Source of the DNA: Aquabacter sp. L1I39
Lineage (GTDB): Bacteria; Pseudomonadota; Alphaproteobacteria; Rhizobiales; Xanthobacteraceae
Reading direction: 5' to 3'
NCBI RefSeq assembly: GCF_017742835.1
Contig: NZ_CP072392.1
Location: 3,557,695-3,621,694 of the forward strand
DNA: 64,000 bases
Each line of letters opens with the position of its first letter. Position 1 is the first letter of the stretch. Under the pieces are notes generated by a model, which saw nothing but the letters and a program-made list of their open reading frames with translations, ran no database searches and had not been told where the DNA came from. Shown here one piece after another: positions 55,116 through 60,281 of this stretch. Position numbers and translations under genes: made by a program.

Positions 55116-56111
55116 TCAGCCCGCCGGGTCGGCGGGCTCCGGCGCGCCGGTGGGCGGGTGGCCGAAGCGGCGGGTGAAGGCGAGGGAGAAATTGCTGGCA
55201 TGGGCATAGCCCAGCCGGTGCGCCACCTGTTTGACGCTCAAGTCGCCCCTGCCGAGCCATTGGTGGGCGAGATCGAGTCGCCAGCGCACCAGGCATTGCA
55301 GCGGCGAGGCGCCGAACACCTCCCGGAACACCTCGTTCAGCCGCCGCTGGGAGAGCCCCACCTGGGCGGCCACCTCCTCGATGCGGGGCGGATGGGCGGG
55401 GTCGGCCATCAGGATGTCCCGCGCCGCCAGCGCCAGCCGCCGCGCCCGCCCGCTGGGCGCGGGCACCGCGTCCTCGCAGAAGGCGGACATGTATTCCGCC
55501 AGCATCTCGAACGCCTTGCCCTCCAGATAGAGGGTCTCCATCACGCCCCGATAGGGGTTGCTGGCGATCTGCTCGGCAATGGTGCGCATGGCCGCGGTGG
55601 GCGCGGCGGAGGCGATGAAAGGGTCGAAGGTGCCATCCAGGAACGCGGCGATGGTGCGGTTCGGCCGCTGGCCCTGGAGCATCTCGCTGAGCCGCTCGGG
55701 CGTCACCGCCATGCCGGACGTCACGTGGTGGCCCGGCCCGTAATGGAAGGTGCTGGACGGGTCGCGCAGCATGGCGAAATGGCTGCTGGTGGGCAGGATG
55801 GCGCCCTCCAGGCCGCCATCATGGACATAGAGGTTGCGCCCTGAAAAATTCAGCGCCAGCCAGAGATAGGGCTCCCCGGAGAGCACCTCATAGGTCAGGT
55901 CCACCGGCGCGCGCACGCGCGCCTCGAAAGTGTAGACCTCCAGCCCGGGCCGCAGGGAGAATTGCGGATAGCTCACCTGTGCCACGCTGTCCGGCAGAAG
56001 GCGCTCATGGGGTGGCAGGTCCAGGCTGTCGAACCCGTTGGGCAGCATCCACCGGCTGTCGGACGCAATGCCCATCGCCGCCGCGCCCGCGACCTCGGAT
56101 GTCTCTTCCAT
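55116..56111 (-). CDS. AraC family transcriptional regulator
   Basis: 331 residues. The C-terminal HTH domain is complete: PRIEEVAAQVGLSQRRLNEVFREVFGASPLQCLVRWRLDLAHQWL, then the second helix-turn-helix VKQVAHRLGYAHASNFSLAFTRRFGHPP. The N-terminal part (about 1-220) is of the PchR-like AraC type, with LVLNFSGRNL-like ALNFSGRNLYVHDGGLEGAIL. The start at 56111 gives the usual length. It is divergent from edd (164 nt between the start codons) and convergent with the RND pair. Which of these it controls is unknown, and edd is the nearer candidate by position. Confidence 0.9.
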   Translation of the reverse strand: MEETSEVAGAAAMGIASDSRWMLPNGFDSLDLPPHERLLPDSVAQVSYPQFSLRPGLEVYTFEARVRAPVDLTYEVLSGEPYLWLALNFSGRNLYVHDGGLEGAILPTSSHFAMLRDPSSTFHYGPGHHVTSGMAVTPERLSEMLQGQRPNRTIAAFLDGTFDPFIASAAPTAAMRTIAEQIASNPYRGVMETLYLEGKAFEMLAEYMSAFCEDAVPAPSGRARRLALAARDILMADPAHPPRIEEVAAQVGLSQRRLNEVFREVFGASPLQCLVRWRLDLAHQWLGRGDLSVKQVAHRLGYAHASNFSLAFTRRFGHPPTGAPEPADPAG

Positions 56112-56274
56112 GCCCGCCCCCGGGTTCAGGATGAGCTTGACCTTAACATAAGGCTCCGCCGGCCGTGTGACCATTCGCTGTGCAGCAAGGCCGCGCGGAC
56201 ACGGTCCCGCTGCCATTGGGCCGCCACGCAGCGCGGCCTATAGTAGTTCCAGAAAAGCGCAGGTGGAGGCGATC

Positions 56275-58110
56275 ATGGACGGCAGCAGCAGCATCCAGGC
56301 CCGGGTGGGCGAAGTGACCGAGCGGATCGCCCGCCGGAGCGCCGCCGGACGCGAACGTTATCTCGACCGGATCGCGGCGGCCGCGCGCAACACCCCGGCG
56401 CGTCGGGGCCTTGGCTGCGCCAACCAGGCCCACGGCTTTGCCGCCTGCGGCCCCCATGACAAGGCGGAATTGCGGGCAGGGGAGGGGCCGAATCTGGCCA
56501 TCGTCACCGCCTATAACGACATGCTCTCCGCTCACGAGCCCTATGAGCGCTTCCCCGCCCTCATCCGCAATGCCGCGCGGGAGGCGGGGGGCACCGCCCA
56601 GGTGGCGGGGGGCGTGCCGGCCATGTGCGACGGCATCACCCAGGGCGAGGCTGGCATGGAACTGTCCCTCTTCTCCCGCGACGTGATCGCCCTTTCCACC
56701 GCGGTCGCGCTCTCCCACCAGACCTTCGACGCGGCGGTGTATCTCGGCATCTGCGACAAGATCGTGCCCGGCCTCGTCATCGGCGCGCTCTCCTTCGGCC
56801 ATTTGCCGGCGGTGTTCCTGCCGAGCGGCCCCATGACGTCGGGCCTGCCCAATGACGAGAAATCCAAGATCCGCCAGCTGTTCGCGGAAGGGCGCATCGG
56901 CCGGGACGAACTCCTGGAGGCCGAGGCGCGCTCCTATCATGGGCCGGGCACCTGCACCTTCTACGGCACCGCCAACACCAACCAGATGATGATGGAGATC
57001 ATGGGCCTGCATTTGCCCGGCGCCTCCTTCGTCACCCCCAACACGCCGCTGCGCGACGCGCTCACCCGCGAGGGCGTGCACCGGGCGCTCGCCCATACCG
57101 CGCTGGGCAACCAATACAAGCCCATCGGGCGGATGCTGAACGAGAAGGCCTTCGTGAATGCGGTGGTGGGCCTTCACGCCACCGGTGGCTCCACCAATCA
57201 CACGCTGCATCTGGTGGCCATGGCGGCGGCGGCGGGGCTCACCCTCACCTGGGATGACTTCTCGGACCTTGCCGAAGTGGTGCCCCTGCTCACCCGCATC
57301 TATCCCAACGGCAAGGCGGACGTGAACCATTTCCATGCCGCCGGCGGGATGGGCTTCGTGATCCGCGAACTGCTCTCGCAGGGGCTCCTGCACGCGGACG
57401 TGGAGACCGTCTGGGGCACGGGCCTTGATGGCTATGCGGTGGAACCGGGCCTGGATGCGGATGCCCAGCTCACCTGGCGCCCGGCGGCGGAGGCCTCGGG
57501 CGATGCGGCGGTGCTGCGGCCGGTGGCCGAGCCGTTCCAGCCCACGGGAGGCCTGCGGGTGCTCACCGGCAATCTCGGCCGGGCGGTGGCGAAGACCTCG
57601 GCGGTGGCGCCCGAACGCCATGTGATCGAGGCGCCCGCCCGCGTCTTCCATTCCCAGGAGGCGTTCCAACAGGCCTTCAAGGCCGGCAGCCTGACGGGGG
57701 ATTTCGTGGCGGTGATCCGCTTCCAGGGGCCGAGCGCCAATGGCATGCCCGAATTGCACAAGCTGATGCCGCCCTTGGGCGTGCTCCAGGACCGGGGGCA
57801 GAAGGTGGCCCTCGTCACCGACGGGCGGCTCTCAGGCGCTTCCGGCAAGGTGCTCTCCGCCATCCATGTGACGCCCGAGGCCGTCCATGGCGGCGCCATC
57901 GCCAAGATCGGGGATGGCGACCTGGTGCGGGTGGATGGGGTTGCTGGCACGCTGTCCGTGCTGGTGGAGGAAGCCGAGCTCGCCCGCCGGCTGCCGGCGC
58001 AGGTGGACCTTTCCGCCTCTCACGAGGGCGTCGGCCGCGACCTCTTCGGCGCCTTCCGGGGCGCGGTGGGCGCTGCCGATCATGGCGCGTCCATCTTCCG
58101 GGCGGCCTGA
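56275..58110 (+). CDS. edd: Phosphogluconate dehydratase (Edd), Entner-Doudoroff pathway
   Basis: 611 residues of the IlvD/Edd family. The Edd-type N-terminal phrase is [22 protein letters not shown]. Cysteines consistent with the cluster lie in [42 protein letters not shown] and [32 protein letters not shown] and [14 protein letters not shown] complete the fold. It converts 6-phosphogluconate to 2-keto-3-deoxy-6-phosphogluconate. GTGGAGG precedes the ATG at 56275. The aldolase (eda) and zwf/pgl genes are not adjacent. Confidence 0.95.
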
Positions 58111-58142
58111 GCGCCGGAGCGGACGGCACAAGCGCGCCGATC

Positions 58143-58196
58143 TCAGCGCATTTCCAACATCAGCGGGGACCGGTTCGCGGAAGGGAAATGCGCTGA
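58143..58196. repeat. 13-bp inverted repeat in the edd/Nif11 intergenic region
   Basis: TCAGCGCATTTCC (58143-58155) and GGAAATGCGCTGA (58184-58196) are perfect inverted copies with a 28-nt spacer. The element lies 33 nt after the edd stop and has the form of an intergenic REP-like palindrome or an extended terminator. Confidence 0.65.
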
Positions 58197-58363
58197 AACG
58201 AGCAGAGAACGTTTCAGGGTCTCCTGTCGAAGCTCTGACATGCTCTCGCCAAACATCTGCACCAGAGGGCGGACGTCTCACCGCCCTTCGGGCCCGTCGC
58301 ATCCCAGGGTGGTCGCCGCTTTGCTTGACGGGTTATCTCAACCTTCGAGACGATACGCCGCAT

Positions 58364-58630
58364 TCACTTCGTGATCCTCATGGCGCTGCGCCACCGCTCC
58401 AGGATCATGAAGGGATTTCCACCGCCGCTCACCCCTTCCAGCTCCGCCTCGCTCAGCAGGCCGGCCTGCGGCAGGTCCTCGGGGGAAAGGGTGAAGCCGG
58501 CCGCCTGTGCCGCCGCCAGAAACATTTCCGGCGTCAGGGGCTCGTGCTCGGGCAGCGCGTCTTGAAAGCGCGACGCCACATCCGGATCGGTCTCAATGGC
58601 GGCCAGTAGCGCCGCAAGTTTCTCGTTCAC
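58364..58630 (-). CDS. Nif11-type leader peptide, candidate RiPP/bacteriocin precursor A
   Basis: 88 residues. The leader (1-70) has the Nif11-like pattern: an N-terminal helix MNEKLAALLAAIETDPDVASRF, PLTPEMFLAAAQAAGFTLSPEDLP, then LSEAELEGVSGG ending in a double-Gly. The putative core (71-88) is GNPFMILERWRSAMRITK, 18 residues with net charge near +3 and no Cys. Such leaders precede natural-product peptides that are modified and exported. It starts at GTG 58630, with GGAG about 9 nt before. The paralogous gene B lies 49 nt upstream. No modification, protease or ABC exporter gene is adjacent. Confidence 0.82.
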   Translation of the reverse strand: MNEKLAALLAAIETDPDVASRFQDALPEHEPLTPEMFLAAAQAAGFTLSPEDLPQAGLLSEAELEGVSGGGNPFMILERWRSAMRITK

Positions 58631-58679
58631 TGCCGTTCACTCCTTTTCAGGTTCGATCTCATCACCGGCCGGAGGCGCA

Positions 58680-58985
58680 TCAGCCGAAGAGCTTGTTCCA
58701 GACCTTGCGCCAGGTCTTGGCCTGCCACGCGAGGGTCGGGATTGCTTCGGTCCGCAGGTCGCGTGGGCGCACGCCGCCCGAGAGCTCTTCCAGCGCCCGC
58801 TCGTCCAGCGCCGCCGTGCCGAAGGGAAGGTCCTCCCGCGACAAGGCAAAGCCGGCGGCATGTGCAGCTTTCACAAACATGTCCGCTGTGAGCGGCGCAT
58901 TCTCCGGCAGAGCAGCCCGCACCCGGGACAGAACCTCCGGATCGGTCTCGACAGCGTCCAGAAAGGCCGAGAGCTTGTGGCTCAT
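58680..58985 (-). CDS. Nif11-type leader peptide, candidate RiPP/bacteriocin precursor B
   Basis: 101 residues. The leader is clearly paralogous to A (MSHKLSAFLDAVETDPEVL, AAHAAGFALSREDLPFG, LDERALEELSGG). The double-Gly lies at 70-71, and the core (72-101) is 30 residues with Arg73, Arg75, Arg78, Arg93 and Lys90, Lys94, Lys98. Trp87, Trp92 and Trp96 are spaced every four to five residues (AWQAKTWRKVWNKLF), and there are no Cys. The core is strongly cationic (about +5) and amphipathic. GGAG precedes the ATG at 58985. It is probably co-transcribed with A, 49 nt apart. Confidence 0.84.
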   Translation of the reverse strand: MSHKLSAFLDAVETDPEVLSRVRAALPENAPLTADMFVKAAHAAGFALSREDLPFGTAALDERALEELSGGVRPRDLRTEAIPTLAWQAKTWRKVWNKLFG

Positions 58986-59273
58986 GCTGGGTCTCCACCC
59001 ATTTGCAGGGCATGCACAGTCTTATCCGTGCGGCCCGGCCGACCGCAATGAAAGGCTTGGTAACACAAGCACTTTCGCCCCACACAGCCACCGCCGCGGG
59101 CCATGTTCGCGCGGAGGGGATGAGGGGGCTCGACCCCCATCCATGCCCTGCGGGAATGCATGAGGGCAGTGCTCTGCGCCGCCGCGCCATTGCATCGCGC
59201 AGCGATCGGTGGAAGCTGGAGCGCGGACCGCGCCGGCGGCATTCAGAACCGGCCGGCGGGTGAGGGAGGATGC

Positions 59274-60281
59274 ATGTCGGCACATCAGGGAGCGCCCGCC
59301 ACGGGGGGCATCACGCAGATCGCTCCTGGCCTTCTGCGGGTCACCGTGCCGCTGCCTTTCCCGCCCAGCGAGGTGAATGCCTGGCTGCTCGCCGACGAGG
59401 GCGGCTGGACGCTGGTGGATTCCGGCGTCGATGATGCCGCCACCCGCGCCCTCTTCACCGCCGTCCTTGCCCATCCCTTGCTGGGCGGCCTGCCGGTGAA
59501 GCGGCTGCTCGTCACCCATTTCCATCCGGATCATCTGGGCCTGTGCGGCTGGCTCCATGCCCGCACCGGCGCGCCCGTGCACATGGCGCGCACCGAATGG
59601 CTCCAGGCCCGCACGCTGCTCGCCGAGCCGGCGCAGATGGTCATTCCCCATATTGTCGACCATGGCCGCTGGTGCGCGGCCCCGGACGCCTATCTGGAGA
59701 TGGTGGAGCGGCGGGGGCTGATCTTCAACCGCTGGGTCACGGCGCTTCCCCACTCCTATGTGCGCCTCAAGGAGGGCGACGAACTGGACCTTGCCGGCAC
59801 CCGCTGGCGGGTGCTGATCGGCGAAGGTCACGCGCCGGAAATGGTCTGCCTGTTCAGCGCCGAGCGGAACATCCTCATCGCCGCCGACCAGATTCTGGGC
59901 CGCATCACCCCCTTCATCGGGGTCTGGGCGGGAGAGCCTGAGGCGGATCCCCTGGGTCTGTTCCTGTCCTCGCTCGCCCGCTTCGAGCCGCTGCCGCGCG
60001 AGACGCTGGTGCTGCCCTCCCATGGCGAGCCTTTCTTCGGCCTGCATGCGCGCATCGCCGAGCTGAAGGCCCATCACGAGGAGCGCCTCGCCAAGCTGAT
60101 GGACTTTTGCGCCGCCCCCCGCTCCGTGATGGAGGCGGCCACCATCCTCTTCCGCAAATTGCCCACCGAGCAGGTCGGCTTCGGCATCGGTGAGGCCCTG
60201 GCCCATCTGCGTCATCTGGTGGTGCGGGGGCAGTTGCAGGTGGTGCAGGGGGCGCCCGTGGGGCTTTTCCAGCGGGTGTGA
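59274..60281 (+). CDS. MBL-fold metallo-hydrolase
   Basis: 335 residues. The metal motif is LVTHFHPDHLGL, with further ligands in EGHAPEMVCL and LPSHGEPFFG. A C-terminal helical extension (about 255-335) follows, as in the GloB/lactonase-like subgroup. The substrate is unknown. Lactone or thioester hydrolysis is typical of the fold, but nothing specific shows here. GAGGGAGG precedes the ATG at 59274. A longer reading from 59160 has no match to the fold. It is divergent from the Nif11 peptide genes, with about 290 nt between. Confidence 0.87.
   Translation: MSAHQGAPATGGITQIAPGLLRVTVPLPFPPSEVNAWLLADEGGWTLVDSGVDDAATRALFTAVLAHPLLGGLPVKRLLVTHFHPDHLGLCGWLHARTGAPVHMARTEWLQARTLLAEPAQMVIPHIVDHGRWCAAPDAYLEMVERRGLIFNRWVTALPHSYVRLKEGDELDLAGTRWRVLIGEGHAPEMVCLFSAERNILIAADQILGRITPFIGVWAGEPEADPLGLFLSSLARFEPLPRETLVLPSHGEPFFGLHARIAELKAHHEERLAKLMDFCAAPRSVMEAATILFRKLPTEQVGFGIGEALAHLRHLVVRGQLQVVQGAPVGLFQRV

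Follow-up and report, generated by a model that had tools for sequence, protein, structure and literature searches.

Class II double-glycine bacteriocins and microcins carry a Gly-Gly leader, are exported by C39 peptidase-ABC transporters and have no maturase. Nif11-derived peptides (N11P, TIGR03798) were tied to the NHLP/Nif11 export cassette (TIGR03794/03796/03797) in 2010, and the similarity of their leaders to those of class II double-Gly bacteriocins was stated in the same article (Haft et al., PMC2887384). Precursors of the Nif11 type are usually treated as substrates of maturases (PMC2887384 among other sources), and in cyanobacteria, precursors encoded at a distance from their clusters have been noted before (PMC3140520). 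The recognition determinants reported for one C39 peptidase acting on Nif11 leaders are Leu-12, Glu-8, Leu-7 and Val-4 (PMC6363468). Among open-license PMC papers, we found no description of the peptides reported here.

The window, i.e., the whole stretch of 64,000 nucleotides that was analyzed, belongs to a one-contig genome of 5,388,224 bases. It contains two small genes, A and B, which in a profile search were the sole PF07862 matches of the genome at E ≤ 0.001. Gene B (58680..58985, minus strand) starts with ATG and encodes 101 amino acids, with 35.4 bits against TIGR03798 (cut-off, 32.3) and 27.7 bits against PF07862 (cut-off, 23.8). Gene A (58364..58630, minus) starts with GTG 49 nt after the stop of B and encodes 88 amino acids, with 41.7 and 30.5 bits against the same two cut-offs. 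As read from the upstream letters, Shine-Dalgarno-like sequences precede both genes: GGAG 7 nt 5' of the ATG of B (58993..58996, minus), and AAGGAG 9 nt 5' of the GTG of A (58640..58645, minus). The leader of A (residues 1–70; 58421..58630, minus) ends in LLSEAELEGVSGG, is followed by a third Gly, and fits all four of the published determinants before its Gly-Gly (Leu at −12, Glu at −8, Leu at −7 and Val at −4; PMC6363468). The leader of B (residues 1–71; 58773..58985, minus) ends in ALDERALEELSGG and fits at −12 and −7 (both Leu), with Ala instead of Glu at −8, Leu at −4 and Gly-Gly at −2/−1. Over a longer stretch, the leader ends are LSEAELEGVSGG in A and LDERALEELSGG in B, both of which finish Ser-Gly-Gly. 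The core of A is 18 residues long, GNPFMILERWRSAMRITK (58367..58420, minus; stop codon at 58364-58366), and has a charge of +3. The core of B has 30 residues (58683..58772, minus; stop codon at 58680-58682), ends in TLAWQAKTWRKVWNKLFG and has a charge of +4 over its last 18 residues; its Trp residues occur at positions 87, 92 and 96, i.e., at a spacing of 5 and 4, in the triplets WQA, WRK and WNK. Neither A nor B contains Cys. The first-pass annotation had reported Nif11-like leaders ending in a double Gly, Cys-free cores of 18 and 30 residues and recurring Trp in the longer one, and each of these observations is borne out; it had named leader scores below the family cut-off as a refutation, and both scores are above it.

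The pair is flanked by edd on one side and, as had been noted, by a divergent MBL-fold hydrolase gene (start at 59274) on the other. None of the C39, radical-SAM, LanC-like or YcaO matches of the genome lies inside the window, and no immunity gene was seen by eye beside the pair or beside the corresponding array of the sister species, which agrees with the earlier remark that no maturation gene adjoins. There was no Rfam match for a structured RNA at 57900-59400, and a crude scan, of a kind that suits few alphaproteobacterial promoters, detected no sigma-70-like promoter at the locus. A perfect 10-base inverted repeat, GCGCATTTCC...GGAAATGCGC, lies 3' of edd at 58146-58193 (it occurs once in the window, where chance would give no match) and could represent either a dispersed repeat or a terminator. 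Beyond edd, as seen from the pair, lies an AraC-type regulator gene (55116-56216, minus) that is conserved in the sister species. With leaders over the TIGR03798 cut-off, a Gly-Gly followed by divergent cores, and an unlinked TIGR03794/03796/03797 exporter in the genome, A and B are, as judged from their sequences, members of the N11P precursor family, a classification that implies a modified product for neither.

The genome-wide search for C39 peptidases suggested by the first-pass annotation returned a single one (one PF03412 match), which forms the N-terminus of a 724-aa protein scoring 971.8 bits against TIGR03796 (equivalog cut-off, 853.3). This peptidase-ABC protein is flanked by proteins over the cut-offs of TIGR03797 (776.8 vs 709.4 bits) and TIGR03794 (256.5 vs 156.2 bits), which completes an NHLP/Nif11 export cassette (HlyD, C39-peptidase ABC and second ABC) approximately 536 kb from the A/B pair. 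The peptidase retains the ECGA motif, the cysteine of which we take to be catalytic. A small double-Gly ORF lies beside the cassette in both Aquabacter genomes (L011:2334-2798, minus; L094:6235-6519, minus); its leader ends in MLSDDELLPVSGG or MLSDDELIPVSGG (MLSDDEL[LI]PVSGG), which resembles the leader ends of A and B, and its core of about 64 residues ends in KGTR. The copy in the window's genome had no NCBIfam match, and this ORF likely encodes a further cargo of the exporter.

Protein searches returned 6 proteins for B, 3 for A and 18 for an alignment of 12 sequences, counts that include the window's own protein(s); the alignment search scored only the 7,996 candidates that shared most words. 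In a scan of genome contigs, no relative was confirmed with B alone, and the alignment returned one locus, in Aquabacter sp. P-9. The aligned relatives fall into three core types. The A type comprises A of the window and P0008, which share 17 of 18 core residues and 74% of their leaders. The B type comprises eight database proteins and the sister copy, and the Trp spacing and the W-x-K-L-F-G end of B recur in all eight database proteins compared. Seven proteins (P0012-P0018) make up the C type, in which the cores have 16 residues, as in MDSFYNLERWRKVWKR, and P0011 of the sister species is intermediate between the A and C types. The region after the Gly-Gly is thus in frame and recognizable in the relatives; the first-pass annotation had asked for this comparison, and the unconserved, frameshifted region that it named as a refutation was not seen. 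In both Aquabacter genomes, the B-type gene is accompanied by an A- or C-type gene. The same may hold for the metagenomic pairs P0008 and P0009, P0010 and P0016, and P0004 and P0017, on contigs of 4880, 6498 and 2357 bases, where a common contig is deduced from equal size alone. This hints at a two-peptide unit of a B-type core with a shorter partner.

We also compared the window with the other Aquabacter genome (G001), here called the sister. At the syntenic site between edd and the MBL-fold hydrolase gene, the sister has six small double-Gly Nif11-like ORFs, of which three exceed the TIGR03798 cut-off (41.7, 41.9 and 33.1 bits), two fall below it (24.5 and 16.7 bits) and the sixth gave none at E ≤ 0.1. 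A Trp occurs among the nine C-terminal residues of each of the eight Aquabacter cores encoded at this site, i.e., the two of the window and the six of the sister. The cores of the sister array (L012:8472-10839) otherwise differ widely, and one of them (L012:9555-9854) has a Cys near its end. The difference between six ORFs and two would be consistent with the birth and death of peptide genes at a fixed site. Between the window and the sister, B is 69% identical, vs 96.6% for edd, 94.9% for the MBL-fold hydrolase and 93.9, 86.8 and 94.2% for the three exporter proteins, so that evolution is much faster in the peptides than in their surroundings. Conservation within the B type is lower in the core (mean pairwise identity of six proteins, 69%) than in the leader (78%). 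For B of the window against B of the sister, dN and dS were 0.128 and 0.468 in the leader, and 0.375 and 0.722 in the core.

The hydrophobic moment exceeded that of shuffled sequences at p < 0.05 in only 1 of the 14 cores (P0010, p = 0.028; B of the window, p = 0.12; A, p = 0.44), i.e., there was no support beyond composition, and the amphipathic helix was rejected as a proof. In an AlphaFold2 model of B (mean pLDDT, 68.0), residues 85-100 at the C-terminus form a helix. A Foldseek search of this model against the PDB returned nothing at E ≤ 0.001, and a sequence profile against PDB chains returned only a Nif11-domain protein (E = 0.43) and hemoglobin (E = 0.73). An amphipathic helix in B is suggested by the Trp spacing of 5 and 4 and by this low-confidence model, not by the statistics. 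The first-pass annotation had offered cyclophane crosslinks or an unmodified amphipathic bacteriocin; of these two ideas, the unmodified bacteriocin is the better, but its amphipathic part is weak.

We then examined whether precursors and exporter occur together. Among 391 genomes of the family, 6 had TIGR03798 matches and 30 had TIGR03796 matches over the cut-off. The exporter was present in all five genomes with full-length Gly-Gly proteins (G000, G001, G055, G081 and G102) vs 25 of the 386 others (Fisher p = 1.9e-6), the others including 18 genomes with below-cut-off TIGR03798 matches (24 genomes had any match). When G191, in which a Nif11 domain without Gly-Gly directly follows nifH and TIGR03796 does not reach the cut-off, was also counted as positive, the figures were 5/6 vs 25/385 (p = 1.1e-5). 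Among 397 genomes of the order, 9 exceeded the TIGR03798 cut-off, G000 included. Here, TIGR03796 was over the cut-off in 6/6 genomes with full-length Gly-Gly proteins (G606, G641, G643, G682, G698 and G710; four of the six are of one genus) vs 3/50 others (p = 2.6e-6), the latter (G391-G440) being taken in order, not at random, from 385 genomes without a match. With one row per genus, the exporter was present in 3/3 vs 3/50 (p = 9e-4). All of these p values are only indicative because the rows are related by descent. In G526 and G446, the match covers only the first 51-52 of the 68 TIGR03798 positions; G526 has neither Gly-Gly nor exporter, and G446 has the exporter. Three genomes with below-cut-off TIGR03798 matches (G605, G671 and G676) lack a TIGR03796 exporter. 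The 65-aa Nif11 proteins of G191 (L096) and G526 (L107) are over the TIGR03798 cut-off without Gly-Gly and end after the Nif11 domain, with no core; therefore, TIGR03798 fails to distinguish precursors from Nif11 proteins of the nif type. In G102, G641, G643 and G682, the Nif11-GG genes and the cassette are no more than approximately 10 kb apart, and inspection by eye of 16-20 kb at these loci revealed neither radical-SAM nor LanM genes. Two of the Nif11/exporter loci in other genera (L131 and L132) adjoin AraC-type regulator genes. In G055, which is of another genus, Nif11-GG peptides are encoded at several unlinked sites (L091:8018-8476, L092:6984-7923 and L098:5903-6427); two of the sites adjoin an ABC gene resembling the second exporter subunit, and several of the peptides have FF-x-x-W, or an aromatic motif like it, at their C-terminus.

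Taking these results together, we consider it probable that A and B, a small group of paralogs with Nif11-type leaders and a double Gly, are precursors exported in trans by the unlinked NHLP/Nif11 exporter as linear, unmodified peptides, likely a bacteriocin-like pair. The single type-I exporter of the genome would bind the last ~12 residues of the leaders, cut after the Gly-Gly and export the 18- and 30-residue cores, which would leave the cell linear and unmodified. B would probably provide the long Trp-x-Lys member of the pair, and a peptide of the A type (in relatives, also of the C type) the shorter one. The most likely targets of the cores would be other bacteria, against which they would form a narrow-range bacteriocin-like set, a secreted signal being the next best role; we infer either role from the class of the precursors, the charge, the Trp content, the fast turnover and the growth of the array. 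Several observations stand against this reading. The exporter is unlinked to the pair in both Aquabacter genomes, in contrast to the linked loci of G102, G682, G641 and G643, and a different exporter or a defunct pair is therefore possible. No immunity gene is visible, a single core of 14 beat its shuffles, dN of B is higher in the core than in the leader, and G191 and G526 exceed the TIGR03798 cut-off, with proteins that lack Gly-Gly, in genomes without an over-cut-off peptidase-ABC.

Other readings concern the state of the cores. In the whole genome, neither LanC-like (PF05147) nor YcaO (PF02624) domains were detected. Radical-SAM profiles gave 21 matches, two of them in one frame, i.e., 20 proteins, and 18 of these exceeded a named family's cut-off: MoaA (twice, L014 being the second), MiaB, HemN, RimO, HemW, BioB, MtaB, LipA, YgiQ, RlmN, PqqE, PA0069, NifB, a lysine-2,3-aminomutase-like protein, MSMEG_0568, TIGR04295 and QueE. 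PqqE is a peptide maturase that acts on PqqA, and no second SPASM match turned up in the sister genome. The two proteins without a family were L026 (radical SAM and SPASM) and L023 (B12-binding radical SAM). The genome-wide search for maturases thus covered the LanC-like, YcaO and radical-SAM classes. The first-pass annotation had offered radical-SAM cyclophane crosslinks as one possibility, which would require a radical-SAM/SPASM enzyme encoded elsewhere to join W-x-K triplets into three-residue cyclophanes before export. W-x-K triplets might suit the aromatic-x-x rule for cyclophane crosslinks and recur in the cores of the B-type database proteins (third triplet in 8/8, second in 7/8 and first in 5/8), a pattern also compatible with a plain helix, and L026 is encoded in both Aquabacter genomes (97% identical). 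However, L026 had no over-cut-off NCBIfam maturase match, and among 32 genomes searched it was found in 2/9 with Nif11-GG proteins and 1/23 others; its neighborhood in the window's genome is one of glycosyltransferases. In the one other genome (G004), which has no Nif11 match and no over-cut-off peptidase-ABC, orthologs of L026 (76%) and L023 (72%) lie near each other among nucleotidyltransferase, sugar dehydratase, dTDP-sugar epimerase, methyltransferase and glycosyltransferase genes, and both proteins look like polysaccharide enzymes. Cyclophane maturation was rejected as the main reading, and we regard it as highly improbable: since no maturase of these classes was found, nothing supports cyclophane chemistry, and secretion of unmodified peptides is the reading that fits best. 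The expectation that the machinery is encoded elsewhere was right; the remark that no exporter adjoins is true as well, but it conceals a complete, dedicated one at a distance of 536 kb. Rather unlikely, in our view, is some other modification of the cores before export, such as acylation, hydroxylation, methylation or bromination. The literature describes diverse enzymes on Nif11-type or related leaders, and in two other genera a GNAT acetyltransferase (L132:7014-8132) and a JmjC/cupin protein (L133:13277-14470) adjoin Nif11-GG genes and the linked cassette; they are possibly unstudied tailoring enzymes, and modification is therefore possible in those genera. However, none was seen next to the pair, nor in the 16 kb examined at the cassette.

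The remaining alternatives deny export altogether. That A and B are intracellular Nif11 proteins of nitrogen fixation or regulation, with an incidental Gly-Gly, would accord with the NifB encoded in the genome and with the Nif11 domain beside nifH in G191, but the pair (window, 3557695-3621694) is far from nifB (597961) and outside any nif cluster, A and B carry a conserved core after the Gly-Gly whereas the proteins of G191 and G526 end after the Nif11 domain, and the Gly-Gly types track the exporter across genomes; we consider this very unlikely. Orphan remnants of a former cluster, with expression or export lost, would explain why two genes are present here vs six ORFs in the sister and why the crude scan found no sigma-70-like promoter. 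This reading is very improbable, however, in view of the intact frames, Gly-Gly motifs, ribosome-binding sites and cores, of a dN below dS in both leader and core, and of a core of A that is nearly invariant in P0008.

If the preferred reading of secreted, unmodified peptides is correct, the locus suggests that Nif11 leaders can also serve plain secreted peptides, a claim that is directly testable because the cores are short and linear. A wider idea, which we put forward tentatively as possible but doubtful, is a maturase-free Nif11 branch in which the leaders would be only export tags for an obligate pair of linear Trp/Lys peptides (a B-type W-x-K core and a 16-18-residue A or C partner), served in trans by one exporter and subject to tandem birth and death at a fixed site.

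Compared with the N11P systems described in PMC2887384, the locus shares a leader family over the cut-off, the Gly-Gly, paralogous sets with divergent cores and the same three-gene exporter. It differs in that its genome has no lanthionine or thiazole/oxazole enzyme, its exporter is distant, and its cores are Cys-free and of the Trp/Lys type, whereas those of N11P are rich in Cys, Gly and Ser. LahT/LahA of Lachnospiraceae bacterium C6A11 (PMC6363468) is similar in combining a C39 peptidase-ABC with Nif11-type leaders and in residues −12, −7 and −4, but it is a linked cluster with nine precursors, whereas here the genes are unlinked and no maturase was found. Prochlorosins (PMC10783134) also have Nif11 leaders and many paralogous precursors, but they contain Cys and depend on LanM-class enzymes, whereas no LanC-like domain occurs here. 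With class II double-Gly bacteriocins and microcins, the pair shares the double-Gly leader, the C39-ABC exporter and the lack of a detected maturase; unlike them, it has a long Nif11 leader and no adjacent immunity gene seen by eye, and its antibacterial role is putative. The description as an "undescribed peptide system" in the first-pass annotation was too strong, since Nif11-derived peptides and the export cassette had already been linked in 2010 (PMC2887384). The leader family and its link to the exporter are known already, and the novelty lies in an unlinked, maturase-free pair of Trp/Lys peptides, together with its relatives.
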